Below are positions 1-22,630 of a stretch of 34,699 bases of DNA, piece after piece. A program made the translations under genes and the position numbers. The notes beneath the pieces are model-generated. The model was not told the DNA's origin. It saw nothing but the letters and a program-made list of their open reading frames with translations, and did not search any database. The DNA lies in NCBI GenBank assembly GCA_022925895.1, contig JAKSYS010000658.1, forward strand, positions 1-34,699, written 5' to 3'. The stretch's first letter is position 1, and every line of letters starts with the position of its first letter. Origin of the DNA: Fragilaria crotonensis (Eukaryota > Bacillariophyta > Fragilariophyceae > Fragilariales > Fragilariaceae).

Positions 1-5
1 AGTAT

Positions 6-242
6 GTTTGGCGTGCGCCACAGTCGACGAACAGACACACCCTACCGATTACCAGCTACTGATGACGCAGCCCTTTGAAGTGCGTCAGTAGCGGTTGAGC
101 GTAGAATGTATGGCCTATAAGACAGATAGTCAATCTCTGCAGCTGTTTCTAGCTGATCGGAGCAGAGAGAGAACTCCACCAAAAATACTTCATATTTTCT
201 ACAAGTGTTCGCGTGAGACGCGAATCGATAGGAAAAGGGATA
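6..242 (+). repeat. A1 terminal repeat of YR retrotransposon
   Basis: 237 bp, repeated at 6462-6698 with the constant offset 6456. I count two substitutions (both G to A in A2) and no indels. It contains an imperfect hairpin: arm 56-69 pairs with arm 81-91, apart from a 3-nt bulge. It ends six bases before the first element ATG (248), so it acts as the 5' leader. Confidence 0.92.
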
Positions 243-247
243 GTACG

Positions 248-550
248 ATGGTCGACAATCCGGCGTTAGCCGAACTAGTCGCAGCGCAACCAGTTGCGCT
301 TCAGCGTCCGTATGCCGCTGACCCAGGGACCCTCACGGGGTGGCTGGTCAAGGATACGCTCGAAGCATCCCCGGATGAGGTGCTTCGCATTTTGGCGGCG
401 ACAAATGCTAAGTACGCAAATGTCAATGCCACCGATGCCAACGCGGAGGATGCCACAAACATCCTCAAGGAATTGGCTGAGGATATATTTGCGGCCGAAG
501 CGTTGGAGACTTTCCTGACGGTAGTGATACCTGAAGGGGGTCAACTGTGA
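248..550 (+). CDS. Small first ORF of YR retrotransposon (100 aa, unknown)
   Basis: This is the first ATG after the A1 repeat. The frame is open upstream to 95, but that part lies inside A1, so 248 is the natural start. The 100-residue product is acidic and alanine-rich (many Ala, Asp, Glu, Asn) with no recognisable domain. Its stop TGA (548-550) shares its last base with the ATG (550-552) of the following Gag-like frame. It could be a separate small protein, or the N-terminal part of Gag cut off by a frame change. Position favours a Gag role. Confidence 0.5.
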   Translation: MVDNPALAELVAAQPVALQRPYAADPGTLTGWLVKDTLEASPDEVLRILAATNAKYANVNATDANAEDATNILKELAEDIFAAEALETFLTVVIPEGGQL

Positions 551-2586
551 TGGTCGTGACAAGAATGTCCCGATACCGCCCAGAACTGGGAGTGGCCTCG
601 CCGTGGTCGGGACAAGGCTTTGGTTTCCTCGGGGAGGTCGAAGGAGGGCAGTTGCCCCCGTTGGTGAAGCTGCCAGATGCGTTGTCGTTACGACAGGCGT
701 TGGCTCCGAAAGAGGTGCTCGCGCCTACGTGGTCCGAATGGAACACCCATTTCGGCATTGACCCTCGCGACGTGCGCATCCGAGGCGAGGAACTCATGGT
801 TGTAGAGGGCGGAGATGACAATGGCAGGAGGGTACTGGTGCCCAAGTTGCAGTACCTTCCTCGTGCCTGGGCGCCGTACTTCTTTGGCGGCACAACTCCG
901 GAGCACGCTATGAGACTGATTCGTCAGCTAACTCGGAACTTGGAGACCGAGCAACAAAAGGAAGTCGCAGCCCCTTTGGAGCGCTGGTGTGCCGCGTCGT
1001 GCGTGCGAAGCGGTATTGTCGGTAATCTGCGCTCGCGCAGCAAGAACTACATCGCGTGGGTGTCGCCGGCGGGGGCACTCGACAGGGCGCTTACGCGTTG
1101 GAGCGCACGAAAGATGGCGCCGTATATCACGATCGCAGTGCCACCGATGATGGCGGCGATGTATCCCCCAGCGGCGGCTGGCGGCGGAGAGGCAGCAGCC
1201 CCATCCCGATGATGCATGCTCCGGGATACGAGGCCGGCAATCGGGACAAGGTGTATAGCCCCTTCGAGCACGAAAGAATTCGGACGGCATGTGGACTTTC
1301 GCACGCCAACTACGAAGCAAGTCGTCCGCCCATTTATGCAGCCATGCTCACGGAAGGCCGGACAATGGCCAAAGTGGAGGCAGTATTGCAGAGATTCTTT
1401 GAACCTATTGCAACGCATTGGGATCCAGTGAAGATCTACGTGTCAACAGAGTTGACGCGCGATGTCAGGACCTGCGCTTCGGCTACGGGAATGAGAACAC
1501 GTACGACACGTGCCATCGCGGAATCTCGCCGTTTGCGGTGCTGCAAGTGTCCATGGAGCAGCAGAACAAGCGTCGTAGGATTCAAGAGCGCCGATCGAGC
1601 GACGCACTTGTCGACAGACGACGCGCGAGATGGAGGCCGAGCCGGAAGCTGTCCAGCACCTACTTCACTATGTTAGGTCTACTAAAAAGTACATACAGTT
1701 GCTGACTGTTCTTTTTGGCCCGGGATGTGCCCACCTGGCGGAGGTACAGGGGGTCTATCAGATATTGTCGGCCAAGTCCGCCGTCTACGAGACGATGACG
1801 GCGGAATTGGTCGCGGAGACTCTATGGCATGTCTTCATCGACGCCCGGGAGTACTTCAGCTACACGGGACCGGGATTGCCGGACTCGCAGTTGTTTGCCC
1901 TGCGCGACTGTCTCAGGAGCTGCTCGTTGAAGGTGACGATTAACTGCCCGGTCTACATGCTCTTGGGACGTCCAGCCCCATCGGTGGCAGCAGTGGTGTC
2001 GCGAACAGGCAGTGCTGGCGGCGGCGGTCGCGGAGGAAGCCACGGGAGCGGTGGATCAGCATCGACGATGTCGACACTCACAGGATCGGCGGCGGCGTCG
2101 CGAGTGGCGCCTGAGATGGTTGGAGGAAAGTGGTTAAACCCGACTCCGATTCCGGAGATTGTATCCATCATGACAGCCCTCCGAGCTCGGAAGCCAGGAG
2201 TGGATATGTACACGATCATGCGGTCCCAGAAGCTACTGATGTCGGATGTTGGCATTGGGGGCCGCGGGCAGTGCATGGACTTCATGTACTTCGGCGAGTG
2301 TGGCAAGTCGGGATGCTCGTACTCCCACGTCGCCGGAGCGGTGTCGGCTGGAAAACGGCGCGACGTGATCAAGAAGATGACAAAGCGGTCGCCGGGTATC
2401 TTGCCGAGGAGACTAGTGCCGGTGGCTGACGAGCAGGGAAAGCATGACTGCGGGAGGATTACGGAGACGAGTAGCGACGACAGTACAATTAATACAACAG
2501 TCGACCTTACATCCGTTAGTTCCACCACTACCCACATCATGTTCGTTCCCCAAACAGCACAAAAATCCCGCCTACACACAGTGTAG
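550..2586 (+). pseudogene. Gag-like gene of YR retrotransposon, CCCH zinc finger, frame-broken
   Basis: Coding character runs through 550-1212, then another frame from about 1209 to 1460, another from about 1460 to 1620, and back to the first frame for 1630-2586. Each change has the sense expected of a one-base loss. The last segment is a globular region followed by a Gly/Ser-rich linker (about 2000-2070) and a zinc-finger-like motif at 2272-2326 spaced C-x8-C-x4-C-x3-H. The position before reverse transcriptase and the C-terminal zinc finger support a nucleocapsid or Gag role. I recognise no capsid fold. Residual sequencing indels could account for the breaks. Confidence 0.6.
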
Positions 2587-2951
2587 ACGCGAACTTGCGA
2601 CCCGTGTTAATATCGGGCGCGGGAATTACAGCACCATACACAGTAGCCGTACTCGCGGCAGCCGGTGAGCGACGGGTAACTGCCGCGTCGTCCGGCGTGC
2701 TCCAGAAGTCGGACACGCGCCAGCGATCGGTGGACAGACCACCCACTCTGCCAGCGCACCAGTGTCGTACTGGCACTGACCCAGTCACTACGGACGTCAC
2801 CCGGCACCGAGGCCGGCACGACGGCCGCCAGACAGACCAGCGGAGTTTTCGTTCGGCGCGCGAATAAGCGCGGAAGATCCGGATCTTCGCCCAAGTCGAA
2901 TCTTTGAGCCACCCGGCGAATCACCCACAAAATTGCACAAGGTAAGCTTAG
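2587..2951 (+). other. Gag-Pol junction of YR element, no assignable domain
   Basis: Two frames are partly open here, one to about 2865 and a second to about 2959. The latter is rich in Pro and charged residues. It is probably the degraded start of the Pol reading frame, but nothing recognisable can be named. A splice-donor-like AAG/GTAAGC lies at 2938-2946, with no convincing partner acceptor. Confidence 0.35.
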
Positions 2952-4790
2952 AAAATTAATGAACCGGAACCGTGGATGCGATTCCACCCATTTGTAGCAA
3001 CGTTGGAGCAGTGGTCAGATGGAGTACCAGTAGTTTGTAGTCCGCCATGGAGCCCAGTAGCAATAGAAACAGCGGTCGCGAGGGGTCCGCACACAAGTGC
3101 ACTAACGCCAGAGGCGCGCCAACTTATAACGGAAGAGATGGAATACCAAGTAGCTGCAGGTTTCTCTGAGATTATGCTGTGGTCAGACGTCCAGGCGCTG
3201 CAACCAGAGCACCTCAAGGTATCCCCACTGGCGGTAATACCGCAAGTCGGCCGACGTGGCCGTCTGCTATTGGATTTATCCTTTGCCGTTCAAGCCCCGC
3301 CGCTGGGAAGCGCGCCAGACGCGCAAATAGGCCCACAGAACCCGCACCGTCTGTGAACGACACAACAACTAAGCTATCGCCAGAATATCCTGTCAAAGAA
3401 GTAGGCCGAGTCCTCGTACGATTGCTCCAGTTTATGGCCGCGGTACCCGCAGAGGAGATAATCAATTTTGCTAAGATTGACCTATCCGATGGCTTCTGGC
3501 GCATGTTGGTTGCTGACGACAGCAAATGGAACTTTGCGTACACACTGCCCGGTGAGGTCGATGCCCCGTGCAAGTTGTCATCCCACATGCCCTCCAAATG
3601 GGCTGGACAGAAAGCCCGGGTTACTTCTGCGCCGCAACCGAGACCGGGCGGGACATTATGCAAGCAGTGATTGATGCCGGAACTGTCTGCCCCCGCACGC
3701 GTTAGATGACTTTATGACACCACACAACCCCTGCTCGCCGCCAGACCAGTCCCGAACGACAGTGCGAAAATGGCAGATGTCGGCCGTGTATGTCGATGAC
3801 TACATTCTGGCTGCCGTGGAAGACCGGGCCGGCACTCTATTGCAACGCACCGGCCGGGCGGCGCTATACACCATTCACGGCCTTTTCCCGCCGCCCGCCC
3901 GCTCAGGCCACATAGGCGGTAAGGACCCGATCTCAGCAAAAAAGCTTGCAGCCGGTGATGCCCGATGGGCCCACACCAAAGAACTACTCGGCTTCGTCTT
4001 CAATGGGAAAGACCGCACCGTGCACCTTACTCAGCGAAAAGCGGCAGGTATTGCCGACGACACCGCCAAGCTACTTAAGAAAAATAGAGTGGCACTTCAC
4101 AAATTTCAGTCCATCGTTGGAAAAATGCGTCACGTTACCACGATACTGCCCGCGGCGCGCGGTCTCTTTACCCCGCTCAACCGTGCCCTGCGCGGCAACC
4201 CAAAGGTCATCTCGTTGGGTGCCCACGGGGAAGTCCGCGCTGCGCTCCTTGATTTGCGGCAGCTGGTGGTCAAACTTGCTGACCGCCCCACCCACGTCAA
4301 TGAAATCCTCCAACTCGGCGCCCCAGCCTACATTGGGTATTGCGATGCGAGTGCCTTCGGCGCCGGCGGAGTCTGGTTCAGCGGCACAGTGCCGCTCCCG
4401 AAACAGTCTGGCGACTGCAGTGGCCGCGGGATATCACCGCGGCCGTCGTTTCTGAGCAACCCGACCGGGAAGCTGACTAACTCAGACCTCGAGATGGCGG
4501 CGGTTGTTTTGCACTTGCGTTCTAGAAAATGTAGTGCCTTCCTTCGGCACCTCCACATTTTTGTCCATAGTGATAATACTCCAAGTGTAGCATGGGTGAC
4601 TAAGATGGCGACCAAAACGGCGCAATCCGATGCTGCACACCGACTCGTCCGAGGTTTGGCGTTGCGCCAACGTATGCTGGAATCGGCCCCCGTGAGCATT
4701 AGTCACGTCGCGGGGACCGACAATGTATTAGCCGATATCGCATCACGCCCCATCCCCACCATTGATGACGACTCTGCGTTCCTCACGCAC
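2952..4790 (+). pseudogene. Reverse transcriptase-RNase H of YR retrotransposon, frame-broken
   Basis: The protein is read in four frame segments. The first, 2952-3290, holds the finger region with HLKVSPLAVIPQ and the LLLDLSF box. The second, about 3357-3570, holds motif A, INFAKIDLSDGFW. The third, about 3570-3705, holds PHALQMGWTESPGYF, the conserved DIRS-type stretch before the active site. The fourth, from about 3693, holds the catalytic YVDD at 3789-3800 and then RNase H. In RNase H the acidic residues are visible in YCDAS (near 4340), SDLEMAAV (near 4485) and VHSDN (near 4565). Every change has the sense of a one-base loss. The sequence is closest in character to DIRS-order RT, not LTR-type RT. 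The product is non-functional as written. Confidence 0.85.
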
Positions 4791-4839
4791 TTTGATTCTG
4801 CCTTCCCATTACAGAACAGATACTGGCGTCGTGCCAGCC

Positions 4840-5952
4840 CGCTACCCGTGCAGCTTTCCAATGTGATTTTGACGCTGCGCGGGCAGCGCTTGACAATGCA
4901 ACGGTGGACACTAAAGTCCGGGCCGCCAACTGGCGGTGGTGGGGACAATACTGCACCGAGTGTGGAGTTGATCCCTGGCTCCGAGACATTAACCCGCCCA
5001 CCCGACTCCAATTATTGTTGGGCTTTGCCGCACGGACTCGAACTGGATATTTTGGGAAGGGAAGGCAAGTTACCTCCCAAACTGTTGAAAAAGCCATGCG
5101 TCACGTGGCACAAGCCTTCATGCTGGAGGGATACCCTGACCCCCGATGCCCCTCTGGATCCAGCGGAGGCGACCTGGCTCTGCCCGTTACCCACTTACTT
5201 AAATCCTATAAAGACCGAGACCCCGTCCCCCGACCACAAGTTGCCCTCCCCGTTGGTGCCATCCAAATGGCCGCCGCCGCCCGCCTAGATGCTGCTGCTA
5301 CCCCCAGGGAGCAGGCAACTGCCCACCTAATCGTCATGGCGTTTTATTTTCTCCTGCGGGTTGGTGAATATACACTACCCCCAGCTCATGTCACCACCCG
5401 CACTATCCAGTTTCGAGTGAGTGACACGCGTTTCTGGCAAGGCCAGACGCTGTTACCGCCCACCAGCGAGGCAGCAACCCTCGCAGCGGCCACCTCTGTG
5501 ACGCTTGTGATGGACAATCAAAAGAACGGGCACCGTGGTGACACCATCCACCAGGAGGCGTGCGACACGGATTTTTGCCCCGTCCGCTCAGTTGCGGCTC
5601 TTGTGAGTGCCATCATGGCCCAAAACATGCCGGTTTCTACCCCACTGAGTTTTGTACAACCAGGCATGCATGTGCAGCCTGGCCATATTCTCCATGCCGT
5701 CCGGCGGGGAGCACAATTAGCTCAGCTCGAGGCAAGCGGCTACCAGTTAACCCGGATCGGTGCGCACTCGCTGCGCGCCTCGGGTGCCATGGCCTTGTGG
5801 TTATCCGGTCATGGCCCGGAAGCGATTATGAAACTGGGACGCTGGCGCACCCAAACATTTCTTACTATATCCACTCCCAAATCGCTGCCCTCACCACAGG
5901 CACCTCTCGCAAGATGGGGCGTTCAGTCAACTTCCACAATGTGGGCGGGTAA
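4840..5952 (+). pseudogene. Tyrosine recombinase of YR retrotransposon, frame-broken before catalytic Tyr
   Basis: This is a phage-integrase-fold recombinase. An open frame of about 350 residues (usable ATG at 4904, coding character from about 4840) contains the N-terminal helical domain and then catalytic features: Arg in FLLRVGEY (about 5356), the H-x-x-R box AHSLRAS (about 5764) and Trp in LGRWRTQTF. The nucleophile Tyr codon TAT lies at 5866-5868 in the next frame, followed by IHSQIAALTTG and a stop at 5950-5952. One base is missing between the Trp and Tyr motifs. It follows RNase H with no spacer domain. It would recombine the circular DNA intermediate into the target. Confidence 0.85.
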
Positions 5953-6224
5953 ACTTTAGTAACCTCAGACTGTACAATCGAACAGCATCGGACCCTGCTC
6001 TTTTCATTACGTTCTTAGGTTTCCGCAGGTTCCTGGGCGGTCCGGCGCCCGCATTTATCCGAACTGTTCGATCGGGACCGGCGCTAGCACCGCGCCGGCT
6101 TCCTGTGCACTTGTAGCTTTGTCAAGGACACCTCCCGGTGGGGGTGGGTGTGTCCTTGGCACCGTTTACAAGGCCGAATTAGCTGGTGCAAATACGACAC
6201 CACGAAGCAAACGGCACCGAGTGG
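5953..6224 (+). other. 3' untranslated part of YR element with hairpin
   Basis: No coding sequence is seen. There is a perfect 9-bp inverted repeat, arms 6123-6131 and 6150-6158, with an 18-nt GC-rich loop. It could be an RNA structure for replication or 3'-end formation. Role unknown. Confidence 0.5.
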
Positions 6225-6463
6225 GGATGATCCGGGAGGGAACAAACCCAAAGAACCTAGAGTTCTGTGGAAATTCCTAACCCTATAGATTCCTGTCTAC
6301 GGCCAATATGCTAGTGTGGTAGTACTGTAGTTGCTAGCACTGGTGCCACACGACCACTAGTGATGACGAAGGATTCTACTGGAGGAACGACATACTGTAC
6401 ACTACGGGAGCTACTCCCAGGATATTCGAAGACCGAGCGCACAGCCCCCTATCTCTGATAGGT
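6225..6463 (+). repeat. B1 repeat of YR retrotransposon
   Basis: It is repeated as B2 at 6739-6983. I see no substitutions, only three length differences in or next to G or C runs (B2 longer by 3, 1 and 2 bases). Its last two bases GT (6462-6463) are also the first two of A2, which gives a B1-A2 junction identical to the joint expected in a circular intermediate. Confidence 0.92.
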
Positions 6464-6698
6464 TTGGCGTGCGCCACAGTCGACGAACAGACACACCCTA
6501 CCGATTACCAGCTACTGATGACGCAGCCCTTTGAAGTGCGTCAGTAGCGGTTGAGCGTAGAATGTATGGCCTATAAGACAGATAGTCAATCTCTGCAGCT
6601 GTTTCTAGCTGATCGGAGCAGAGAGAAAACTCCACCAAAAATACTTCATATTTTCTACAAGTATTCGCGTGAGACGCGAATCGATAGGAAAAGGGATA
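6462..6698 (+). repeat. A2 repeat of YR retrotransposon
   Basis: Second copy of A1 (6-242) at offset 6456, with two substitutions. It directly follows B1. It is separated from B2 by 40 bp of C/G-rich spacer (6699-6738). Confidence 0.92.
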
Positions 6699-6738
6699 CC
6701 CACCCCCCCTCACCGGTGTGACTAGCACACCCCACCCC

Positions 6739-6983
6739 GGATGATCCGGGGGGAGGGAACAAACCCAAAGAACCTAGAGTTCTGTGGAAATTCCTAACCC
6801 TATAGATTCCTGTCTACGGCCAATATGCTAGTGTGGTAGTACTGTAGTTGCTAGCACTGGTGCCACACGACCACTAGTGATGACGAAGGATTCTACTGGA
6901 GGAACGACATACTGTACACTACGGGGAGCTACTCCCCCAGGATATTCGAAGACCGAGCGCACAGCCCCCTATCTCTGATAGGT
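6739..6983 (+). repeat. B2 terminal repeat of YR retrotransposon
   Basis: Second copy of B1 and the right end of the element. It ends in GGT before host sequence starting CACATT. Joining this end to the A1 start (GTTTGGC) recreates the internal B1-A2 junction. Confidence 0.9.
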
Positions 6984-7642: not shown

Positions 7643-9088
7643 ATGTGGCGAGCAGTTGGAGGATCGAGAGTACCATCATTGCCTCGCTTCGCGCAGTCGA
7701 ACCATGGCAGGGGCCGTCGTCCAATGCGCCGCACTTTCTCCTCATCACCGACCAATCCTTCAGAGGCCGAAAAGAAAACTGCCAAGACGCTCTCTTGGAT
7801 GAGCGCCCAAGTTTCCATTCACGGAGAACACGCCGCAAATGAATGGGCTTCCCGTTTGTCCCCGGCCGCCCAACGCGAATTGACAGGACTCATGGTGTCA
7901 AGCCCCCACGCCGCCAACACGGTATTTGCCGTCCCCGAGCCCTCGACTCGCGATTTACGTCTCGTTGCATTCACACAGTCCATCCCCTTTGTCGGTTTTG
8001 GAATAATGGACAACTCACTTCTGATTGTCGCGGGTGACATTATTGATACATCGTTGGGGGTTGCCTTGGGCATATCCACCATGTGTGCTGCCGCCATTGG
8101 AAACATTGTATCTGACGTGGCGGGGGTAATGTTGGGCGCCATTATTGAAGATTATGCGTCTCGCTTGGGATTGCCTGTTCCACAATTATCCATTGCTCAG
8201 CGCCAGTTGCGTTCTGTGCGCTTTGCGAATCAATTCGGATGTGCCGTCGGTCTGGTGATCGGATGTATCATTGGCATGTTCCCGCTATTGCTAATTGATT
8301 CTAATAAGATTCAGAAAATGAAGCAGGAAGCGAAGCTGGATCTCATATTTTCGGATGTTGTGACGAAAGCGAAGGAGCTGATTGGAGCTGAAATCACAAA
8401 TCTCTACCTGATAGTGGATTCCAAAGACACCACCACGCCAACACAAACAAAGCTGACATCGATTGAGGACGCAACTGCAAAGCAACAATATTTCTACAGC
8501 AAGCATGGTCATCCGATTCATATTCCTGTCGGGCGTGGTGTTATTACAAGAGCAGCTATTTCCGGAGAGATTGAGAATATCCAGAAGTAAGTCTATTGAT
8601 GTATGATAGGGGAGTCTCGGTCAATCACGTCTCACACGAGTATAATGCTCTGCATTTCAAGCGCTCTCTCTGAACCAGATATTGCAAAGGAAGAATGGCA
8701 AAAGGCCTTTCCTAATGTTGAGATTCGTAGTTTAGTTTGTGTTCCCGTCTTTGATTCCAGAGGCCGAGTCATTGCGATTTTACAAGCCATCAACAAGGTC
8801 AAACGAGGGTTGACACGGCGAGATTCCGTCCATACAACTGATGCAGGCTTTTCGAAGACAGATGAATCGATTCTGAAGGTATTGGCAACGCATATTGCAG
8901 TTTCCTTGCAGAATATGTACGAACCCGATGTGGAGTTGAGTTTGAATGAGACGATTGATATCTTGAAGGAGCAGGGATTAGCAGGATTGCAGGAACAACG
9001 CCAATTTCTCTCGTTGCCGGCGTCACCCTTGGAGTCCCGCCCTTCTGCGCAGGCAAGGAGAGAAAGGAGTGAGGGCAAGGTTGGATAA
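7643..9088 (+). CDS. TMEM65-like membrane domain fused to GAF domain, predicted mitochondrial
   Basis: Two exons, 7643-8586 and 8662-9088, give 456 residues. The 75-nt intron has donor GTAAGT and acceptor TTTCAAG. Splicing turns the end of exon 1 into ENIQNALSEP, a typical GAF motif, so I trust it. Residues 1-35 are Arg/Ser-rich without acids, like a mitochondrial presequence. Residues about 115-218 match the TMEM65 family, with FVGFGIMDNSLLIVAG, GISTMCAAAIGNIVSD and GCIIGMFPLL forming membrane helices. Residues about 232-400 are a GAF domain with N359-K360, F378 and D382-E383, the NKFDE signature of cyclic-nucleotide-binding GAFs. Human TMEM65 is an inner mitochondrial membrane protein reported to act in sodium-dependent calcium export. 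The GAF tail suggests ligand control of that activity, which is inference. The C-terminus is Arg/Glu-rich. Confidence 0.87.
8587..8661 (+). other. Intron of TMEM65-GAF gene
   Basis: 75 nt, GTAAGT to CAAG. Unspliced reading hits TAA at 8588-8590. Exon 1 ends with two bases of a codon and exon 2 supplies the third, which keeps the GAF reading frame. Confidence 0.85.
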
Positions 9089-9618: not shown

Positions 9619-10808
9619 TTAGGCACGATTTATTTGCCAGCCATAGTCGAAGTATCTCACAGAAACGTCTCCCTTAATGACTCTAGCTTTCAGGTTTTCA
9701 TCCTCAATAAACTGTGGCAAAAACTTTCGAATGCCTTTCCATTGACCAAAATCTGCTCCAAACCACAAAAAGATTCGACTTAGCTCCAAGCAATTGCCTG
9801 TCAACTTGATACCCTTACTATCATTCTTCATCCACAGTCTCATTTGATCCTCCATTTGATCCTTGAGTTTGGGAACCACGAATGCTTCCGGGCGTAAATT
9901 GGGACAACTCGCCGACGCGCACACAATGCAGGCATGGACCAACGGTTCGTCCCAAACTTTGCGCAATTGGTCGTGTTCAATTCCATTCAATGAGATATCC
10001 ATACCGGCCACCTTGCCAGCGATTTGATCCCACACAGGATCATTTGGTTTGGAAAGCTCAGTGATACTCTCGATTTGAATGCTATTCTTCGTCTCGTGTT
10101 GAATGATGATATTGATACAGAGTGCATTGTAGGCATTCATCCAAAAGGCTAATTGTTCGGCCGGTTGCATTTGTTGGACATTGGCTTGTTCCAATTGTGA
10201 CAGATACTGGCAAAAGTCATCATCGGCCTTGACGCCGTCATAATCGACCAAGTTAATTCCACTAACAGCCCCAGCGCTTCCCGCACCAACCTTGACATGT
10301 CGTTTCAGGACAGAGTCCCATTTGGAATGATCAAACGTTAAAGTGGCAACATCAAAAGGGTAATCCTGGAGCTTCGTACGGTCGAGAATCTTCGAGACAT
10401 TCGGAATCGATTTGGAGGCAACCTGCGTTGGATATAAGATCTTGAGTGAGCATCAAAAATCGAAAGCAACGTTGCTTTCTGGGTGGAACATGGAGGAATG
10501 AATCAACATACCTGGAGTTCCAGGTAGTAGTAAACGGGCTTGACGAAATTCGCTAGCAATTCGCGAAGCATAATTGACATTGTTTGTTAGTAAGACAAAG
10601 CAGTGCACAACAAAAAAGGGCGATACAAGTCGTTGACTTCGAGTGAAGGGTTTTCAGACAATGTCACAGAATGTGTACGACCCATCCGATTCCAACTTTG
10701 AAACTCACTTATTTGCTCGAATGACAACCCCATGAGCGCCTTGCCTCCACCAAATGCTACAGTGGTTCCAACTAGCAAGAACGAGATCAGCAGTTGGATC
10801 ATCATCAT
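9619..10808 (-). CDS. DUF547 protein with signal peptide, three exons
   Basis: Exons 10808-10709, 10552-10512 and 10422-9619 give 314 residues. Intron 1 (10553-10708) has donor GTGAGT, a perfect TACTAAC branch site and acceptor GCTAG. Intron 2 (10423-10511) runs from GTATGT to ACGCAG. Phases fit at both joints. The N-terminus is a hydrophobic signal peptide ending TVAFGGG; a Phe right after the predicted cut resembles the diatom plastid-import (ASAF-type) signal, so the protein is secreted or plastidial. The DUF547 domain carries DYDGVKAD (about 107), FWMNAYNAL (about 140), H210 and Cys in HACIVCASASCPNLRPEA, and a C-terminal RYFDYGWQIN. The biochemical role of DUF547 is not established. The start is shared with a 398-bp divergent promoter to the peptidase gene. 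Confidence 0.85.
10423..10511 (-). other. Intron 2 of DUF547 gene
   Basis: 89 nt, donor GTATGT, acceptor CAACGCAG, phase 0. The frame is stopped upstream at 10453-10455 if the intron is not removed. Confidence 0.8.
10553..10708 (-). other. Intron 1 of DUF547 gene
   Basis: 156 nt with consensus donor GTGAGT, a TACTAAC branch sequence, and acceptor GCTAG about 36 nt after the branch sequence. Splicing gives EQITNFVKPVYYYLELQ across the joint, which continues into the DUF547 N-terminal helix. Confidence 0.8.
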
Positions 10809-11206
10809 GTGCGGTCAGCGGGAGGAGGCAAAGGAAGAATAAGTTGGACTGACGAGACAAGGAATTTTGGTCGTCTGGTAGTATTGTACAACTGTACTCG
10901 AGTACACTTATAGGAAACAGACACTGTGCGAGTCGGTACCTGGTAGTGTGTACTGTCCACTGAATGCCTTTTTGACAAGAGCTCAAGACTCAAGATCCGT
11001 AAAAGAATGGGATCAGACAACAAATAACTCAGGCCTCAGGTGTTCATTAATGCTTTGAGAAAACAAAGCACACAGCCCTTCCTGCATCACTCCTGTCCTG
11101 ATTCTTGGATCAGCATAACAGACATCCATTGCTTCATTGCAAAACTTGGTTTCTTGTGCAACCAGTAGACTCCACCACGATACCGAGTAATCGCTAGAGT
11201 CTCATT
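10809..11206. promoter_or_regulatory. Divergent intergenic region (shared promoter)
   Basis: 398 bp between the starts of the DUF547 gene (minus) and the peptidase gene (plus). It must contain both promoters. It holds a GTAC-rich palindromic patch around 10885-10945. No specific factor site can be named with confidence. Confidence 0.5.
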
Positions 11207-11908
11207 GTGATTCACTCGTTCCTTATTGGTCACAGGCAAACGTCCGGCACTCCTTTCCACATGACAACGACAATGACTACCGACATCGAAGCACCAGATA
11301 AATCTACAGTTTCGTTTATTGTCACCGGCTTTGGTCCCTTCCAACACTCGACGGAGAATCCTACGACAGTGATTGCCACCAAATTGAAAGACTACGTTCG
11401 CGACACAAACATTTCTCTCCTGACGACGCTCGTTATTGAAACCTCAGCGGAGGCGGCACAAGCAGAAACTGACCGATTGAAGGAGACAATTGCGAAACAG
11501 AAGAATGGAAATGTTGTTGTACTGTTGCATATGGGAGTGAACTGCATGGGGACCCGGTTTCAGCTTGAACAATGTGCTTACAATGAGGCCAATTTTTCCA
11601 TTCCCGATGAGAAAGGCTTCCAGCCCCGTCATGAGGAGGTCATCGAGGCCTGTGAGCCGGCCTTGATGACGAAGCTAGATGTGGACAGGATTCTGATGGA
11701 TCTTGGACTGGATTCGTTCGTTGTGAGCACGGACCCCGGACGATTTGTCTGTAACTATACCTACTACTGCAGCCTCTCCAAGTTTCACGACTGCGATGAC
11801 GTCTACACCCTCTTTTTGCATGTGCCGCCCTTTTCAGTTGTGCCTGAAGCCGAGCAGTTACAAGTTGTACTGCACTTGATGGACACGATTCGAAGGCAAT
11901 TCGAATAA
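11207..11908 (+). CDS. Pyroglutamyl-peptidase I (family C15)
   Basis: This cytosolic cysteine peptidase removes N-terminal pyroglutamate from peptides. Its 233 residues are close to the usual 200-230. The family opening VTGFGPF is at residues 39-45. The catalytic triad is visible: Glu121 in QLEQCAYNEANF, Cys182 in STDPGRFVCNYTYY, and His205 in LFLHVPP. The frame is unbroken and intronless. The ATG at 11261 (Met19) is an equally good start, because residues 1-18 precede the conserved core and carry no clear targeting signal. The gene is transcribed away from the DUF547 gene across a short shared intergenic region. It is one of the few clean genes in the window. Confidence 0.93.
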   Translation: MIHSFLIGHRQTSGTPFHMTTTMTTDIEAPDKSTVSFIVTGFGPFQHSTENPTTVIATKLKDYVRDTNISLLTTLVIETSAEAAQAETDRLKETIAKQKNGNVVVLLHMGVNCMGTRFQLEQCAYNEANFSIPDEKGFQPRHEEVIEACEPALMTKLDVDRILMDLGLDSFVVSTDPGRFVCNYTYYCSLSKFHDCDDVYTLFLHVPPFSVVPEAEQLQVVLHLMDTIRRQFE

Positions 11909-15088: not shown

Positions 15089-16054
15089 CTAAGTTGTAGT
15101 ATTCAGGCCGATGCCATGCAGTAAAGGTGCAAAGTAAAACCATGGATCTCCAAAGGTCGAACGCGCTTTAACTAACACACACAAACCTGGAGTTCGTTGG
15201 CAAGTTTCAAACATCCATGGTTGGTCTTTGCCGACGAAGTGATCGCGATAGTTGGCCTCAATGATGGCATAGAAGTGTTTGATCCATCGTGAGAGGCCCT
15301 CCTTGTATCCTCCTATGAAGCCACCACCCACATGGCTTGCACGGTCCATGGCATGAGTATCAAGAATAAGGGTTTGCTCTTTCGTGAGCGTGGCAGGTAA
15401 GAAACGTATCATGCGCTGGTCTACCAGAAGTGAATCCCTCATATATCCGACGTCGACCCAAGCGAAGAAAGTTGAGTTGAATGGATTCAGCTCCATGACA
15501 CTTTCAATGAAACGGCTCTTTTGAATCCAAACAACATAGAGCTCCTTACTGTGCTTGTCCTTTTCCGGGTCGAGAGTATGCTGGTGCTGCCAAAAGTCCA
15601 TGCCTCCATAGTCGTTGGCAGCTCTGGTTTCATTTAGCGAGAGTGCAATGATCCGAGTATTGTTGGGTCGATGCTCTCGAAGTTTCGACAAGTGTGGAAC
15701 CAAATCTTGCGATGTGAACAATACCATGTTATCTTGCAAACTCATAAAGTTTTGAATCCAAGGCTGATATTCGGCGGCAGGACGTTTCGACGGAATGTCG
15801 TAGTATGCAGAAACAAGTGTTACGGTTTCGGGCCGAATCTGTACCAAATCAGTGGAATCGATGGTGTAGATCGGTGTAGGGATCACTGTTTCGGGCCGAA
15901 TCCGTACCAAATCAGTTGAATCGATGGTGTTGGTCGGTGTAGGGATTGGAGCAAATGTATCAGGACCAGTTTCAGCAAGAGTATCGGTAGAAATAACTGA
16001 ATCGGAATGGAGGCCAGAAATCTCGATCCGAAACAAGTTATTGGTTATTCCCAT
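15089..16054 (-). CDS. HtrL/YibB-like protein
   Basis: 321 residues, unbroken frame. The HtrL/YibB domain (glycosyltransferase-like, common in diatoms) begins near residue 79 with TLVSAYYDIPSKRP. It includes NMVLFTSQ, a D-x-D-like FAWVDVGYMRD (Asp201) and DTHAMDRASHVGGGFIGG. These features fit a nucleotide-sugar enzyme, but the true reaction of this family is not settled. Residues about 43-78 hold a near-perfect duplication (TIDSTDLV.IRPETV twice), encoded by a 63-bp tandem repeat. No signal anchor is present in this ORF. The same frame upstream contains an ATG at 16153 and a basic stretch, cut off by one TGA (16067-16069), so the N-terminus may be truncated here. Confidence 0.75.
   Translation of the reverse strand: MGITNNLFRIEISGLHSDSVISTDTLAETGPDTFAPIPTPTNTIDSTDLVRIRPETVIPTPIYTIDSTDLVQIRPETVTLVSAYYDIPSKRPAAEYQPWIQNFMSLQDNMVLFTSQDLVPHLSKLREHRPNNTRIIALSLNETRAANDYGGMDFWQHQHTLDPEKDKHSKELYVVWIQKSRFIESVMELNPFNSTFFAWVDVGYMRDSLLVDQRMIRFLPATLTKEQTLILDTHAMDRASHVGGGFIGGYKEGLSRWIKHFYAIIEANYRDHFVGKDQPWMFETCQRTPGLCVLVKARSTFGDPWFYFAPLLHGIGLNTTT
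15825..15949 (-). repeat. 63-bp tandem duplication inside the HtrL-like gene
   Basis: Two adjacent 63-bp units (15825-15887 and 15888-about 15949), about 90 percent identical by eye. The unit length is a multiple of three, so the frame is kept and a 21-residue block is doubled in the linker before the domain. Confidence 0.85.
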
Positions 16055-16524
16055 AAAATGCGAGGCTCATGCTGATCCGAAAAGCCGTGTGAATGTGACA
16101 GTCCTTGCCATAATGAGAATATGACTTGATCTTCTTATTTTTCTTATAATCATTGAAGAGTTTGGTTCCTCACAGCTCAGTCTTTTGTGGGAGGACGTTC
16201 AGGGGAGGATGGTTGTTAAATTGGTTAGATTATAGATTATAGACTCTCTTCGTGCGGTGGGTTTTTGTTTTGGTCATGCTCCAGTATCATACATGTGCTC
16301 AGAATGCTCGGATTATCCACGAAATACTTCCAAAGTTGTATACATATTTCTGTTTAAATATATATATAATAGTCGTACTCCAGCGAGTATGCTGCAGGGT
16401 TGGGAGAAACCACTACAGTAATACGTACAAGTACGTATCCAATACTACTAGTACAAAGTACAAAGTACAAAGTACTCCGAGTACAAACGTACAAACCAGA
16501 ATAGCCAATAATGGAATAGAAAGT
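16055..16524. other. Intergenic region with short tandem repeat
   Basis: 470 bp upstream of the HtrL-like gene. No gene is seen apart from the stop-separated frame extension noted for that gene. GTACAAA is repeated three times in tandem at 16451-16471, next to other GTAC words. The last four bases (16521-16524, AAGT) are the target duplication of the copia element. Confidence 0.5.
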
Positions 16525-17124
16525 TGACAGTATTCGTGTGATCGGTACGCGAGTACTGGCCGACGGTAGACTTAAGGTTAGTAGGACCTAGAAGTCTGCC
16601 GTCGGACTTGACGGGAGAGGAAGCGAACGTGACGGATCGTCCAGCTTTGGGCGTAGGAGTCCTGAAGATGTGGACCATGATGGTAGATTTGTTGTTACAA
16701 ATATGTAGAAGATGTAGAACTAAGTAGTAAAGGCCTTTACTGTTTTTGGTTTGTGGAAATTATAAGTTAAAATGTAGATGAAAAATGAAAGTGAGATCTC
16801 CAATATTAGTTGGAGTCTCACAAAAGTTATGTTGCTTTAATCCCACTTGTTGAGTGGTGTTTGAGTTATGAATCCCATAGTAAAAGTTGTGTTGTCAATA
16901 AAATTGACAACATAACAGATTTGAATACTTAGGGAAACTCAGGGCAACATGATTTAAATTCCTTGTGTGGTCGCGGGATCCAGAGTTCTGATTCGCAGAA
17001 CTACTGGCACGAGTCACGGACAGACGAAGGAAAATAAAGGACTGTCTACCGTATTACCGTATGGTATTTAACCTTACAGTAATTACGAGTGACAGTGTGA
17101 CAGAGTGACAGTAGATCTCTAACA
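16525..17124 (-). repeat. 3' LTR of copia element
   Basis: 600 bp, TGACAG...CTAACA on the plus strand. It contains four inverted repeats able to form hairpins: 16560-16605, 16792-16820, 16891-16911 (9-bp perfect stem) and 16980-17007. TGTCAC-type words occur at least three times at the U3 end (17085-17115). An ATG at 16678 on the minus strand opens a 51-codon stretch that in the 5' LTR forms the start of the element's first protein; here it reads out into host DNA. Confidence 0.95.
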
Positions 17125-17131
17125 CCCTCTT
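17125..17131 (-). promoter_or_regulatory. Polypurine tract of copia element
   Basis: The minus strand reads AAGAGGG immediately before the 3' LTR, in the expected place for plus-strand priming. Confidence 0.65.
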
Positions 17132-17134
17132 GGA

Positions 17135-19021
17135 TCAGATCTCTGGTCCCGGTGATGAAAGCATGTGGTCGGGGAGAACACAGAAGATCTTGGTGAGGTG
17201 AGGATCAATTTTGCCGGAGTGTTGAGTCTTGGTGAGGATATCGGCAAGTTGGGAGTCACAGGGAATCCAATGAAGTTGGTGGATGCCGTCTTGTTGGCCT
17301 TGACGGACGAAGTGGAAACGGCGTTCAATGTGGCGAGTTTTGCGAGTGAGTTTGCCATTCTTGGCGATTTGAACAGTTGCTTCATTGTCAATCATGAGGA
17401 TGGCAGGGATAGAAGGGAGACGTTGAGTGGTTTCACGCCATTGTTTGGTGCCAAGATAGAGCATATCATAGAGAAGCATTCGGATGTGAGCGGTGGCCAT
17501 GGTTGCGGAACATGCAGCCATATATTCAGCTTCAGAGGTAGACATGGCAACAGGTGTTGGCATGGTAGAATTTGCTTCAATAAGAGCACCATTGTAGAAG
17601 ATCATGTATCCAACAGTAGATCGGCCGGTATCGGGGCAGTCTTGCCAGCTGGCATCAGAGAAGACAGTGAGATCAGTGTATGGAATGCGATGATGGATGC
17701 AGATGTCATAGATGGGGTTTGAAGTGCCATCGGGATAGAATTTGAGGGCATAGTAGGGACGACGTCGGAGGTAGCCAATGAGCCAGGTGAGAGCTCGAAA
17801 ATCAGGTATGCCAGGAGAGATGCATGCTTTAGCAAGTTTGCAGACAGCAAATAGGATGTCAGCTCTTGTGTTGTATGCTAGGTAGAGGAGAGTGCAGACA
17901 GCAGAGCGGAACGGAAGGCGTTGTTGCTTATGTTCGACGAGAGTCAGGTCGGAGGCGGTTACGGGGCGGTTATCCTTGCTGAAAGTATAATCGGGAGGGA
18001 AGGGAGTATCTCGTTCTGGGAATTCGGAGTTTGGATCGTATCGTTGAAGAGTGTTCAAAACGTAGCGGTGCTGGTCGAGGGTGTAGCTTGAGTCGGAGTG
18101 TTTGTGGATACGCATTTGTAGGAACCATTGCGCAGGGCCGAGGAATTTGACATCAAAGCGATTGCGGACGGAATCTTCAAATTGTTTTTCGATGGAATCG
18201 TTGCTTCCAGCGTAGAGCATATCGTCGACGAAAAATAGGAGACGGAGCCATTGATTGTGTTTATCATATCGGACAAAATAGGACGGTTCGGAAGGAGACT
18301 GGATAAAACCTTGGGAGTAGAGCCATTCCGAAAATTCAATGTTCCAATATTTGCCGGAGTAGACAAGACCGTAGATTCCTTTGTTCAGTAACATTGGGGA
18401 GCCAAAGAATTTAGCATATTCAGGGAAGTGATAGGCGTATTCCAATGGCAGTTTCACAAAGTGGCGGCCAATAACTTTGGCTTGGAGGTAGGCACCAATG
18501 AAGTCAGCACTCTTGACACTTCTTCTGGATGCACAAATGGTTGCAATGAATAGTTTGACCCCTCTTGCAGATGCACAGGGTGACCAGGTGTCTTCATACA
18601 TGAGTGGTTCAACAGGTATAGGTTTTGGAGTGCCAGGTGAAGAGGTAGCAGATTCAGCAATTTCTTGACGTTGTTCAAGGAGTCGTTGTTGGTTGATGGC
18701 TTTAACTCTTTTCAGGAGACGTTTCTCCAGGTCGCCACGGGCGACAAGGCGAGCTTTTAGTTTGTCAAGTTTTCCAGATGCAGTTTGTTTTGCTTTGAGC
18801 ACAAGTTTGACTGGGATAATGAGTTCATCTTTGTGTGGGGTTTGTCCAAGGATGAAAGTATCATGGTCAATGAGGTTCTTGATTTCCATTTTGATTGCAT
18901 GTAGCCAAGCATTGCGGACATGATCATCAAGTTTGAGAACAGCTTTGAGAGACTGAGGTTCTGGAAGATATTTGTCCACAGGTTCCTGGGGTTGGCTTGT
19001 GAATTGTTGCTGGGAGAGTTG
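17135..19021 (-). CDS. Copia reverse transcriptase-RNase H
   Basis: The frame is open from 19021. An in-frame GTG at 18979 begins 614 residues, but the region is normally part of a polyprotein, so no true start is expected. Numbered from 18979, copia RT shows KARLVARGD (about 75), motif A SADFIGAYLQA (Asp159), and the catalytic FVDDMLYAG (250-258). RNase H follows with SDASWQDCPDTGRSTVGY, STSEAEYMAA and MIDNEATVQIAK, then the tail RKTRHIERRFHFVR and LADILTK typical of copia. This is the longest unbroken piece of the element. It ends just short of the polypurine tract. Confidence 0.93.
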   Translation of the reverse strand, partial: QLSQQQFTSQPQEPVDKYLPEPQSLKAVLKLDDHVRNAWLHAIKMEIKNLIDHDTFILGQTPHKDELIIPVKLVLKAKQTASGKLDKLKARLVARGDLEKRLLKRVKAINQQRLLEQRQEIAESATSSPGTPKPIPVEPLMYEDTWSPCASARGVKLFIATICASRRSVKSADFIGAYLQAKVIGRHFVKLPLEYAYHFPEYAKFFGSPMLLNKGIYGLVYSGKYWNIEFSEWLYSQGFIQSPSEPSYFVRYDKHNQWLRLLFFVDDMLYAGSNDSIEKQFEDSVRNRFDVKFLGPAQWFLQMRIHKHSDSSYTLDQHRYVLNTLQRYDPNSEFPERDTPFPPDYTFSKDNRPVTASDLTLVEHKQQRLPFRSAVCTLLYLAYNTRADILFAVCKLAKACISPGIPDFRALTWLIGYLRRRPYYALKFYPDGTSNPIYDICIHHRIPYTDLTVFSDASWQDCPDTGRSTVGYMIFYNGALIEANSTMPTPVAMSTSEAEYMAACSATMATAHIRMLLYDMLYLGTKQWRETTQRLPSIPAILMIDNEATVQIAKNGKLTRKTRHIERRFHFVRQGQQDGIHQLHWIPCDSQLADILTKTQHSGKIDPHLTKIFCVLPDHMLSSPGPEI

Positions 19022-19476
19022 TCAATTGTCATCATGGCAGAGTGAATGGGATCAATAGTTGGTAGATCTTCATTGCATTCTTGGAAGTAGATGGTCATCA
19101 TCTTGTGGAGTTGGGAATGATGTTGTTGATGGGTGACAAAGTTGATTTGATGTGGTGTGGGTGGTGTTGGACCATGTTGGATGATTGCTTCATTGTGATG
19201 GTCAGCATGGGTTGGGTTAGGCATGGTTCCAGGTGGTTGTTCATCAGTATTGTCATCAGTTGATTCAGGGATGGCAGTCAGGAGGGCAGTGGATTTGTGT
19301 CATCAATGAAGGTTGATGGTGGATTGCCAAGGTTGGCTGCAGATCCAGTTTGGTGAAAAGTAGATGGTTCAGAGTTTTGAGTGTTGCAGAGTCCATTTGG
19401 GTTAAACTGGGAGCGGATGGGGACGGCTCCAGCGAAGGGTTTGGAATCAAAACATAGAGCTGAATTGAAGTCTTCA
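19022..19476 (-). pseudogene. Integrase-RT linker, frame-broken
   Basis: The linker shifts frame at least twice. A segment reading ITRDAYFDEDFNSALCFDSK and then AGAVPIRSQFNPNG looks genuine. It is followed by a His/Gln/Asn-rich segment before RT. No domain is expected here beyond the flexible connection. Confidence 0.55.
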
Positions 19477-20790
19477 TCAAAGTAGGCATCGCGGGTGATG
19501 ACAAGGCTTTGGGGTGGTCAGGGAGTAGACTAGCCAGCCTGCGGAGTTGTCAGGAAACCGAGGAAAATTCGCAGAGGCTCGTTGGAGTTGTTGCTTATAT
19601 GTGATAAGCTTGTTGCGGAAAGTTGGTTCATAGCGTTTGAAGAAGGTAGGACATCCAAAGACACGAAAGTTGGCAATGGAAGGCTTGCGTTGGAAGCTGT
19701 ATTGATAGGGAGTTGTTGGGTTGCCATCTTGATCAATAACATTCTTGGCAGGGCAGACATTTAGGATTTGAACTGCATAGGCATGGGCATGATGGAAGAA
19801 GGCACCTCCAAGTCTTGCATTGTTGAGGAGAATGTTGGCAGTGTTGTGGACTTCACGCCATTTTGCTTCACAAATACCATTCATTTCTTGATGTTCAGGG
19901 GCTGCAGCTTCAACTTTGATACCAAGTGAGGTGCATTCAGAGATGAATTTTGTTGATGTAAAAGCAGATCCAGCATCAGTGCGGATGAAACGGACGGATT
20001 GGGTGCGGCCAAGTAGTTCTGTATCAGTCAGCCATTGCTTTAGAGCAATAAGGATGGAAGTTGTGCTCTCAGTTGGAAGGCCAATCCAACCTGTTAATTT
20101 GCCTGGGGTGGTGACAATAAACAGATAGGCTGAGTAGTTGGAATTGGTGGTGAGACCATAGCGGAAAGGATTGCGCATAAGGTCAAGATGAAGGCGATGG
20201 AAGGGTTCTGTGCCTTGGCGTTGAGGCGTTTTGTTTCTGGCGCGTTTTTGACTGATGGAAATGCGGAGAGGCCAGGAGTTGTGGTCAACAGTAGGTGTGA
20301 GTACATGATCATTCCATGTTTGGTGAAGGGATCCAACCATGAGATTTCGAAAATTGCGGTAAGCAAGTCGTCGATAAATCAGTTCCAAAGGTAAGGCAGT
20401 GACTGAGCGGCGTTGATCAGTGTCAATGGGGGTTGTAGTGTCATCAAAGTGTTGCTCTTCTGGTTCAGAGTCAAGGTCAAAGGGAACTTTGGGGTTGGAA
20501 GTGGTTGAAAAGGCTTGGTGTGGAGTTGGTGCTTCTCTGGTGATAATTGGCCAAGTGTAGGTGGAGCCATTTGGGAGTTGAATGGTGGTAGCTCTGTTCT
20601 TGATCAGGACACTGAAATTTTGAGTGCATGATAGAGCAGTCAGGGAGAGTAGTCTGTGACTTAGGCCTTCAACAAAGTAGACATCAGTGAGACCTAGGAT
20701 GGATTTGAGGCCATCATCAGTGGTGAAGTGACATTCAGTTGTGCCTTTGTGGGTAGACATCTTGGTGCTGCCATCAGCTAGGAGATTGGG
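19477..20790 (-). CDS. Copia integrase
   Basis: One frame of more than 430 residues (ATG at 20760, coding character from about 20790) follows the protease in another frame. The N-terminal His/Cys zinc region is not conserved in an obvious way. The catalytic core has Asp in RLHLDLMRNP, Asp in FIRTDAGSAF and Glu in EHQEMNGICEAKWRE, the D,D,E triad. VFGCPTFFKRYEP marks the end of the core as in copia. It would insert the DNA copy and leave the 4-bp duplication seen at the ends. Confidence 0.9.
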   Translation of the reverse strand, partial: PNLLADGSTKMSTHKGTTECHFTTDDGLKSILGLTDVYFVEGLSHRLLSLTALSCTQNFSVLIKNRATTIQLPNGSTYTWPIITREAPTPHQAFSTTSNPKVPFDLDSEPEEQHFDDTTTPIDTDQRRSVTALPLELIYRRLAYRNFRNLMVGSLHQTWNDHVLTPTVDHNSWPLRISISQKRARNKTPQRQGTEPFHRLHLDLMRNPFRYGLTTNSNYSAYLFIVTTPGKLTGWIGLPTESTTSILIALKQWLTDTELLGRTQSVRFIRTDAGSAFTSTKFISECTSLGIKVEAAAPEHQEMNGICEAKWREVHNTANILLNNARLGGAFFHHAHAYAVQILNVCPAKNVIDQDGNPTTPYQYSFQRKPSIANFRVFGCPTFFKRYEPTFRNKLITYKQQLQRASANFPRFPDNSAGWLVYSLTTPKPCHHPRCLL

Positions 20791-21020
20791 ACACTGCAGG
20801 GTTCAACATCACTGAGGTCGCTGAAGAGTGGAGTATAATGGCTGGTAGCACCACTGTCAGGTAGCCAGTTTGCAAGGAGTGGGGGACCAAATCTTTGGTA
20901 TGGTGATTGGGGGTCATCAGGGAAATAAGCTGTGGCTCCAGAGTTGGGAGGAGCATGGTTGGCAGTTGGAAGATAATCTCTATCAAGTAGAGGTTGATTG
21001 ATAGGCATCTGAGGTAGAGG
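20778..21020 (-). pseudogene. Copia aspartic protease, frame-broken from its neighbours
   Basis: The active-site motif WLPDSGATSHYT is encoded at 20835-20870, with DSGAT at 20844-20858. The frame stops at 20778-20780, where integrase continues in the next frame (LADGSTK). Gag sequence upstream is in yet another frame. It would process the polyprotein if the frames were joined. Confidence 0.8.
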
Positions 21021-22630
21021 ATTGGGCCATGGGATGTTGTCTTGTTGATCATCAAGTTGATCAAGGAGGAAGCTTTGAAAGCTTGGTGATGGTATCTTGA
21101 ATGATTTTGGGAGTCTTGACTAGAGTCAGTAACAAAGTAAGCGCGTTGTTGATTGCGAGGAGCAGCGTTTTCATTGTTGGTTGAACGTTGCGGGTTGGAT
21201 GCGATTGTTTTGGTTGGATCTTGGGTTGGTACAGTTGCGCGAATAGTGGCCGAGGCGTCCGCAGTTATTGCAGACGATGGTAGCTGCGTGGATGCAGAGT
21301 TGCGCGATTGATTGATGTTAGATCCATTGGGTGATGGTCGTTGATTTGGATTCAACGTTGGTCGGAAAGGTGGTCGATTGTTCCGTTGGGGTTGGTTGGA
21401 TGGGCGAGGCGAAGGAGGTGGTGGGCGACGTTGATTCGGGTTGTTGAAAGGTGGTCGCGAAGGATTTGTAGGAGGTCGGAACGGGCGCGAATGGTTTTGC
21501 GGTGGTCTCGGTGGATGACTTCTGTTTTGATTGTTGCCATTAGGGTTTGAATATGGGCGAAGGATGGAGCTGAAAGCTTGTTGTTGACGTTGTGTGAAAA
21601 CACGATGGGTAGTTTGGGGGTGGCGCGATTGAAAATGGTGAGATTGTTGACGGGTAGAATGTGCGTGCTGATTGTAGTTGCGTTGATTCTGAGACGGTAG
21701 TGTGAGACCACGGGATTCGTCAATGTTGAGGAGATGGCTCTCAAGTTCGGCGAATGGTGGCAGAGCTTCGTCGTTTAGTTCAGCTCGGCGGATATCGGCG
21801 TCGAAGCGTTGATAAGATGCGGCGTAAAAGGAGTGATTGCTTCCACCACGAACGGTGCGTTTGATGAGTTCGGCGTCGGTGTTGGGGATTCCAGCATGAT
21901 AGCAGTCGCGCGTAAGGATGCGGATGCGGTTTAGGTAAGAGGTGGCGACTTCATGATGTGGTTGTTTGATAGAACAAAAGGCTTCGCGAGTTCTCTCGAC
22001 GTGATCAGGAGTTAGCGGTGCACAATGGCGTCGTAGAGTAAGAATCGCGGTGCGGGCGTCTGGTGGGCCATCAATGATGTGTTTTTGGCAAGGTCAGATG
22101 TTTGTAAAGATCAGGTTGTAAAGTGCGGTGCCAACAAATGGGTGTGAATAAGAGACTTGTTTTGGCCAAAGATCAAAGACTTGGCGCGTCCACGGGGAAA
22201 TGTTGCAAACAATTCGAAGGTTGTCGATGAAGGTGTTAAAATGGCGGCGGCGTGCTTGAAGATCGGTTGGGTAAGCCAATTTGCGAAGGTTTGCATTTTT
22301 GGCGTACTTCAAAAGCGTCTTGGTTAGGTCTTCAATTGGGGGATAAGTGAAGTCGGTTCGCGTGGAGGATGTGAGTGCGTCAGGCGATGTCTGCTGGATG
22401 TGTTTTGGCTCTTGCTCTGAGTCATGATCGGTGTCGTCGTCAAAGAAGGTGTCGACAGTTGGTGGGTATGCAAAGGTGGCATGGGTCGCCTGGCGCGGAG
22501 TTGGGCGTGCGGAAGCGAGTTTTTGAGTTTCTGGAGGAGTTTGGTGATCATTTTCAGAATTGGCCGTTTTGTGTAGATTTGGTAGGTTTCGTATTGGGAG
22601 GTTGAATAATTTTGCTTTGTTGAGTTTGGG
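21021..22630 (-). pseudogene. Copia Gag core with CCHC zinc knuckle, frame-broken
   Basis: The capsid-like part reads continuously without an ATG from about 22630: ENDHQTPPETQ, TYPPIEDLTKTLLKYAKNAN, FNTFIDNLRIVCNISPW, KQVSYSHPFVGTALYNLIF. It then meets one in-frame TGA (22094-22096) and resumes in the same frame with KHIIDGPPDARTAILTLRRHC and DCYHAGIPNTDAELIKRTV. A Gln/Asn/Pro/Arg-rich tail follows. The zinc knuckle C-N-N-C-G-R-L-G-H-Y-S-R-N-C (CX2CX4HX4C) is at 21231-21272 in a shifted frame. This is the nucleocapsid and packaging protein. Confidence 0.85.

Follow-up and report, generated by a model that had tools for sequence, protein, structure and literature searches.

TMEM65 has only recently been proposed as a mitochondrial Na+/Ca2+ exchanger, and its role is debated. 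In the human protein little sequence follows the TMEM65 domain, and we know of no animal TMEM65 with a GAF-type tail; nor, to our knowledge, does any mitochondrial ion transporter use a GAF domain to bind a cyclic nucleotide. Human TMEM65 is reported to be an inner-membrane protein whose N-terminal signal is cleaved and whose three helices, by prediction, place the C-terminus in the intermembrane space (PMC3994636). Reconstituted in liposomes, TMEM65 is described as showing Na+/Ca2+ exchange, and an EF-hand is reported for many orthologues from outside the Metazoa (PMC13254257, which cites its Supplementary Fig. 1 for the latter). Whether the protein is itself the exchanger or regulates NCLX is disputed (PMC12874050, PMC12894878); Garbincius and colleagues are reported to find a requirement for TMEM65 in NCLX-dependent efflux. 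In mouse brown fat, mitochondrial calcium efflux via NCLX is reported to be PKA-dependent (PMC7334226). All diatoms surveyed in PMC11085791 lack MCU, and the use of any other mechanism by them is said there to be unclear.

Here we analyze a gene of the diatom Fragilaria crotonensis in which a TMEM65 domain is joined to a GAF domain. The window examined is a whole contig of 34,699 nucleotides (JAKSYS010000658.1, assembly GCA_022925895.1), designated C622 in a 62.1-Mb genome of 881 contigs. Like animal TMEM65, the encoded protein has a near full-length PF10507 domain, three membrane helices (predicted here) and a presequence-like N-terminus, but it differs in its C-terminal GAF domain and in belonging to a set of three loci in one genome. 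It shares with the EF-hand orthologues of PMC13254257 the combination of TMEM65 with a sensor, yet here the sensor is a GAF domain; no EF-hand match was seen at E up to 1 in a Pfam search of the window protein and its paralogues L002 and L003. The GAF domain resembles those of CyaB2 (1ykd), PDE5, PDE10A and PDE2A in sequence, in fold (for a weak model of L003), in the NKFDE signature of the window protein and L003, and in the lid signature of L003. It differs from them in residing on a membrane protein, in being one domain rather than two, and in the loss of the lid signature from the window protein. A TMEM65 with a sensor, the EF-hand, is already in print; the GAF in that role is new. We found no description of the TMEM65–GAF pairing in the open-licence literature, and architecture databases may already catalogue it. 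The fusion offers a handle on the control of TMEM65, the GAF being a defined domain whose influence on flux is measurable.

A spliced gene joins TMEM65 and GAF domains

The gene lies on the + strand. Exon 1 (7643–8586) is an open frame from the ATG at 7643, preceded by a stop just before 7622, and encodes a putative presequence, the TMEM65 domain and the N-terminal half of the GAF domain. A 75-base intron (8587–8661) follows, with donor GTAAGT from 8587 and acceptor AG at 8660–8661. Exon 2 (8662–9088) supplies the remainder of the GAF domain (up to 8908) and a 59-residue tail, with the stop codon at 9086–9088. Joined, the exons form a frame of 1371 bases, encoding 456 amino acids plus stop; left unspliced, the gene has a stop at 8588–8590, inside the GAF domain.

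In a Pfam search of the spliced protein, residues 112–219 (7976–8299) matched TMEM65 (PF10507; E = 4.6e-42, 142.8 bits against a cut-off of 25) over positions 2–109 of the 109 in the model. Residues 232–397 matched GAF (PF01590; E = 1e-11, 45.9 bits against 22.4) over positions 2–133 of 133, the part within exon 1 being 8336–8586, and GAF_2 also exceeded its cut-off (36.6 versus 28.6 bits). The sequence-only reading had placed the TMEM65 domain at residues ∼115–218 and had argued, from the continuity of the GAF domain across the intron, for one spliced gene. Both points are borne out: the two profiles score above their curated cut-offs, splicing restores a GAF match that spans the junction, and the frame stays open.

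Across the genome, PF10507 matched at four places, all of them over cut-off. L003, on contig C19, is a single intronless frame with TMEM65 (2.6e-37) and GAF (6.8e-19, 69.1 bits) matches. L002, on C778, is a single frame with a TMEM65 match (6.3e-38) and a C-terminal GAF remnant, which scored 24.1 bits with GAF_2 (E = 4.6e-5), 23.8 with GAF_3 and 16.5 with GAF, all below the respective cut-offs of 28.6, 27 and 22.4; its tail gave no GAF match in a sequence search of the PDB. The fourth, L004 on C419, is almost identical to the window gene. The two domains share a reading frame at three distinct loci, though at L002 the GAF is reduced to the remnant. These matches confirm that the TMEM65–GAF fusion in one protein is real.

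The best-supported reading is that of a transporter or exchanger subunit, TMEM65, with an attached GAF sensor. More fully, we propose that this is one of a small family of TMEM65 proteins, encoded in the nucleus and probably located in the mitochondrial inner membrane, in which a C-terminal GAF regulatory domain would confer control by a ligand, and we hold this view with middling confidence. The fusion, the family and the kind of GAF are shown by the data, whereas the mitochondrial place, the transport and the ligand control are what we infer here; the observations that bear on each are taken up below.

Pocket residues of the GAF domain

We aligned GAF-a and GAF-b of CyaB2, GAF-b of PDE10A and GAF-a of PDE5 with the window protein, L003 and L002. 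CyaB2, PDE5 and PDE10A have a lid signature, an acidic residue (Glu in CyaB2 GAF-a) and then Gly-Tyr-x-Thr, which in cyclic-nucleotide GAFs faces the ligand. In the window protein, the aligned lid region runs from K329 to I336 (8702–8725), and the signature is lost: Lys and Asn-Val-Glu-Ile occupy the places of Asp and Gly-Tyr-Arg-Thr in CyaB2 GAF-b. L003 retains Asp and Gly-Tyr-Arg-Thr, together with the preceding Phe-Asn found in PDE5 and PDE10A. The lid serves here as a conserved signature in the alignment, not a proven contact; in PMC4411481, CyaB2 Asp356 is mentioned only in a cGMP docking mode disfavoured by mutants. Positions T293 and I308 of CyaB2 were studied there by mutation. In the column of I308, a hydrophobic contact, the window protein has Leu, like PDE5 and PDE10A, and L003 lies in a gap; in the T293 column the residues are Asn in the window protein and Leu in L003. 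Taken together, these two positions give a mixed result.

The NKFDE signature lies where it had been read from the sequence, at N359-K360 (8792–8797) and F378 with D382-E383 (8849–8866). All five residues are present in the window protein and in L003, whereas L002 retains F and D only, with N, K and E replaced. The further claim that this signature marks cAMP or cGMP binding is not supported in the form given, with NKFDE taken by itself. NKFDE residues are reported to make no ligand contact, even though their mutation reduces or eliminates binding (PMC11977230), and the window protein has the signature with its lid lost; as proof of cyclic-nucleotide binding, NKFDE alone is ruled out by the pocket comparison and that report. 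Since the window GAF bears the NKFDE scaffold mark but not the lid mark, L003 is the best candidate for cyclic-nucleotide binding. We consider such binding plausible in L003 but doubtful in the window protein. Moreover, the sub-threshold GAF remnant of L002 and the lid loss in the window protein imply that constraint on the GAF domain is uneven.

Dimerisation through flanking helices is common among GAF domains, and the window GAF could bind no ligand and serve TMEM65 purely for dimerisation or as a scaffold. The lost lid would fit such a role, as would the decay of the whole GAF in L002 and the tendency to dimerise. Yet the window protein has kept intact the NKFDE residues, which are required for binding though not in contact, and a hydrophobic residue at the I308 position, and the GAF of L003 is intact. 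We regard a purely structural GAF as rather unlikely.

Mitochondrial targeting, topology and transport

Residues 1–40 of the window protein (7643–7762) form a putative mitochondrial-type presequence, rich in Arg and devoid of Asp and Glu, with R-T-F-S at residues 30–33, which we take to be an import peptidase motif. The first acidic residue is at position 41 (65 in L003, 58 in L002), and the N-terminus is basic in all three proteins. Helical moments were 0.62 for the window presequence (residues 13–30), 0.42 for L003 and 0.32 for L002, the latter two being weak. The absence of acidic residues before position 41 supports a mitochondrial-type N-terminus, in line with the mitochondrial placing predicted in the sequence-only reading.

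In an AlphaFold2 model of residues 97–231 (mean pLDDT 80.5), the TMEM65 part consists of three long helices and a linker helix directed toward the GAF domain. This model had no PDB fold match at E ≤ 0.001, and a sequence comparison of the domain with the PDB gave a chance-level match only (E = 0.57). Taken together with the topology predicted for human TMEM65, the model would have the GAF facing the intermembrane space.

The following mechanism can be envisaged. Family knowledge suggests that the TMEM65 part may carry or support the exchange of Na+ for Ca2+ across the inner membrane. If the N-terminus lies in the matrix and the chain crosses the membrane three times, the GAF would be placed in the intermembrane space, within reach of small cytosolic molecules, and a short helix would link it to the third membrane helix. 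Ligand binding and a dimer rearrangement of the GAF would then alter TMEM65 activity, much as in GAF-controlled phosphodiesterases. Mitochondrial ion traffic might in this way be under the direct control of a signal molecule, for instance a cyclic nucleotide.

Genome searches gave 11 Na_Ca_ex matches on 7 contigs and three LETM1 matches on two contigs. MCU had no match in this genome, but the control genomes gave none either, so this is no proof of absence. The Na_Ca_ex matches leave room for a TMEM65 part that is not a transporter but a regulator of another exchanger, or else a structural protein of the inner membrane, and the requirement for TMEM65 in NCLX-dependent efflux attributed to Garbincius and colleagues points the same way. 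Na+/Ca2+ exchange by TMEM65 in liposomes (PMC13254257) argues against a non-transporting role, which in our estimate is fairly improbable.

Kind of GAF domain and candidate ligands

The GAF sensor of the favored reading was compared with solved structures. At E ≤ 10, the window protein had 13 sequence relatives in the PDB. Twelve were cyclases or cyclic-nucleotide phosphodiesterases, one of these (the PDE6 sequence 6mzb) at E 1.3 only, and the odd one was the HD-GYP phosphodiesterase 4mcw. CyaB2 adenylyl cyclase ranked best (2.2e-11), followed by PDE5, PDE10A, PDE2A and PDE6. For L003, CyaB2 again came first (1.6e-28), then PDE5, 4mcw (5.7e-18), PDE10A, PDE2A and PDE6; at E ≤ 0.001, 20 of 21 sequences were cyclases or cyclic-nucleotide phosphodiesterases, the exception being 4mcw. 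A Foldseek search with the L003 whole-protein model, which is weak (mean pLDDT 57.9), ranked PDE2A (1mc0) first, followed by 4mcw, CyaB2, PDE2A and PDE10A, with other kinds of GAF lower. The proposal that the GAF is of the phosphodiesterase/cyclase kind is upheld by its top solved sequence relatives, CyaB2 and PDE5.

We also surveyed the genome for GAF domains (E ≤ 0.001) with two models, PF01590 and PF13185. Every match fell on a TMEM65 locus (3/3 for PF01590 and 4/4 for PF13185), in a search that runs exon by exon and scores the best candidates only, such that a divergent or much-split GAF could escape. Control matches were obtained in 12 of 14 genomes for each model. The same searches gave no GAF match at the genome's cyclases or phosphodiesterases. 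A protein search with the L003 GAF recovered L003 alone and missed the window GAF, and is thus insensitive. The phytochrome domain PHY had no match in the genome, with a control that matched in just 1 of 14. For the silicon transporter family (PF03842), there were 19 genome matches, 18 of them over cut-off (best E = 4e-193), as would be expected of a diatom. That the detected GAFs all sit on one protein family makes this family a good candidate for the missing diatom mitochondrial calcium control.

Cyclic-nucleotide families are present in the genome, with 24 cyclase, 12 PDEase_I and 31 CNB matches, and cyclic-nucleotide signalling is therefore likely to exist in this organism. Cyclase–phosphodiesterase fusions are known in diatoms. 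On six contigs (C26, C152, C233, C262, C292 and C523), cyclase and PDEase_I matches lie 0.5–0.9 kb apart on the same strand, which is consistent with such fusions.

For L003, in which the lid signature is complete, a cyclic nucleotide would be the likeliest ligand. In the window protein, where NKFDE is kept and the lid altered, the GAF might take a different ligand or have low affinity, or it might bind nothing and pair with a binding subunit in a mixed dimer. GAF ligands are described as varied (PMC4411481), and the signal sensed by the domain might not be a cyclic mononucleotide at all but, say, some other nucleotide, a metabolite or the redox state. The diverged lid of the window protein is in keeping with this, as is the presence among its relatives of 4mcw, an HD-GYP protein that is not a cyclic-mononucleotide enzyme. 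Against it stand the remaining 12 of the 13 PDB relatives, all cyclases or cyclic-nucleotide phosphodiesterases (6mzb at E 1.3 only), and the retention by L003 of that group's lid signature, and we find this alternative unlikely.

In its most specific form, the GAF-sensor reading would put mitochondrial Na+/Ca2+ exchange in diatoms under the direct gating of cAMP or cGMP, acting on a GAF borne by TMEM65, with L003 as an intact binder and the NKFDE-bearing window protein and the decayed L002 as partners that tune the response in mixed dimers. This version is speculative, and we would sooner bet against it than for it by a wide distance.

A near-identical copy of the gene on a second contig

Contig C419 is collinear with positions 6974–31800 of the window at 98–99% identity, from which we take L004 to be an allele or a very recent duplicate of the window gene. 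The two copies differ by 6 substitutions in the 75 intron bases versus 4 in the 1371 exon bases (Fisher p = 2.8e-6, a count that leaves out six small exon deletions in the C419 copy). When the deletions are added as events, giving 10 in the exons versus 6 in the intron, p is 8.4e-5. Of the four exon substitutions, two are silent and two change a residue, S12L in the presequence and D262E.

The six small deletions disrupt the reading frame of L004. In the long alignment of C419 with the window, there are 117 indel events versus 61 mismatches; 83 of the 117 indels involve one base, and 64 lie in runs of three or more. This excess of indels, mostly of one base or in runs, suggests that the frame breaks are assembly errors rather than decay.

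An annotation artefact, which the sequence-only reading had argued against, is ruled out by the pairing without an intron at two further loci and by an intron that varies more than the exons. The frame breaks of the C419 copy might be held to favor two adjacent genes falsely merged by the gene model or by an assembly error, but with the pairing recurring at two intronless loci, a GAF match continuous over the splice, an intron more variable than the exons, and all six breaks being small deletions that fall within base runs or short repeats, as assembly errors would be, this is extremely improbable.

Viral relatives of TMEM65 and neighbours of the gene

Among 50,697 phage records, tblastn detected one with a TMEM65 relative; plasmids gave none. 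Pattern scans based on a three-protein alignment or on the TMEM65 domain returned 114 and 9 stretches in viral contigs and 57 and 81 in genome contigs, with none confirmed; these scans rest on short peptide patterns, and their negatives do not show absence. Viral scans with the phage protein and with a mixed alignment yielded one locus from 4 stretches and two from 74. The viral TMEM65 loci are L013:3022–3306, L014:3622–3909, L015:1262–2203 and L016:4944–5273, with Pfam scores of 64.5, 19.6 (below cut-off), 104.6 and 57.1 bits. The record note of Vibrio phage 2.275.O cites PF10507. Compared with the diatom protein, the viral forms (Vibrio phage 2.275.O and three IMG/VR contigs) largely share the core FG..DN, SD and GC residues, but three of them are 94–109 amino acids long and have no sensor, and L015, of 313 amino acids, has a long acidic N-terminal part. 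These matches indicate that TMEM65, known from mitochondria, has phage members. In a Foldseek search of BFVD, the model of window positions 7931–8335 resembled predicted proteins of giant viruses, among them A0A1C9C5H2 of Heterosigma akashiwo virus 01 (TM-score 0.61, probability 1.00, E = 0.26) and a protein of Mimivirus LCMiAC01 (E = 0.25); none of the giant-virus matches reached E ≤ 0.001.

Collinearity with C419 ends at 6974. To the left of this point, 240-base direct repeats (3–242 and 6459–6698) enclose two frames, 3675–5288, with no Pfam match, and 4796–5959, with a Phage_integrase match below cut-off (E = 0.038). Positions 1–6974 may represent a mobile element which just one of the two copies carries, at a distance of under 1 kb upstream of the TMEM65–GAF gene. 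A second element, at 16525–28252, has direct repeats of ∼600 bases (16525–17124 and 27656–28252), which match perfectly over the two listed stretches (300 and 151 bases) and flank a reverse transcriptase frame (RVT_2) on the – strand. It is probably a Copia-type retrotransposon and is found on C419 as well. Neighbours of the gene encode a DUF547 protein (9619–10452, – strand; 4.2e-22) and a pyroglutamyl peptidase (11198–11908, + strand; 6.4e-17). Two further frames of the window match HtrL_YibB (15089–16066, – strand; 1.4e-13) and a glycosyltransferase region that binds sugar and contains a DXD motif (33248–34102, – strand; 5.7e-9).
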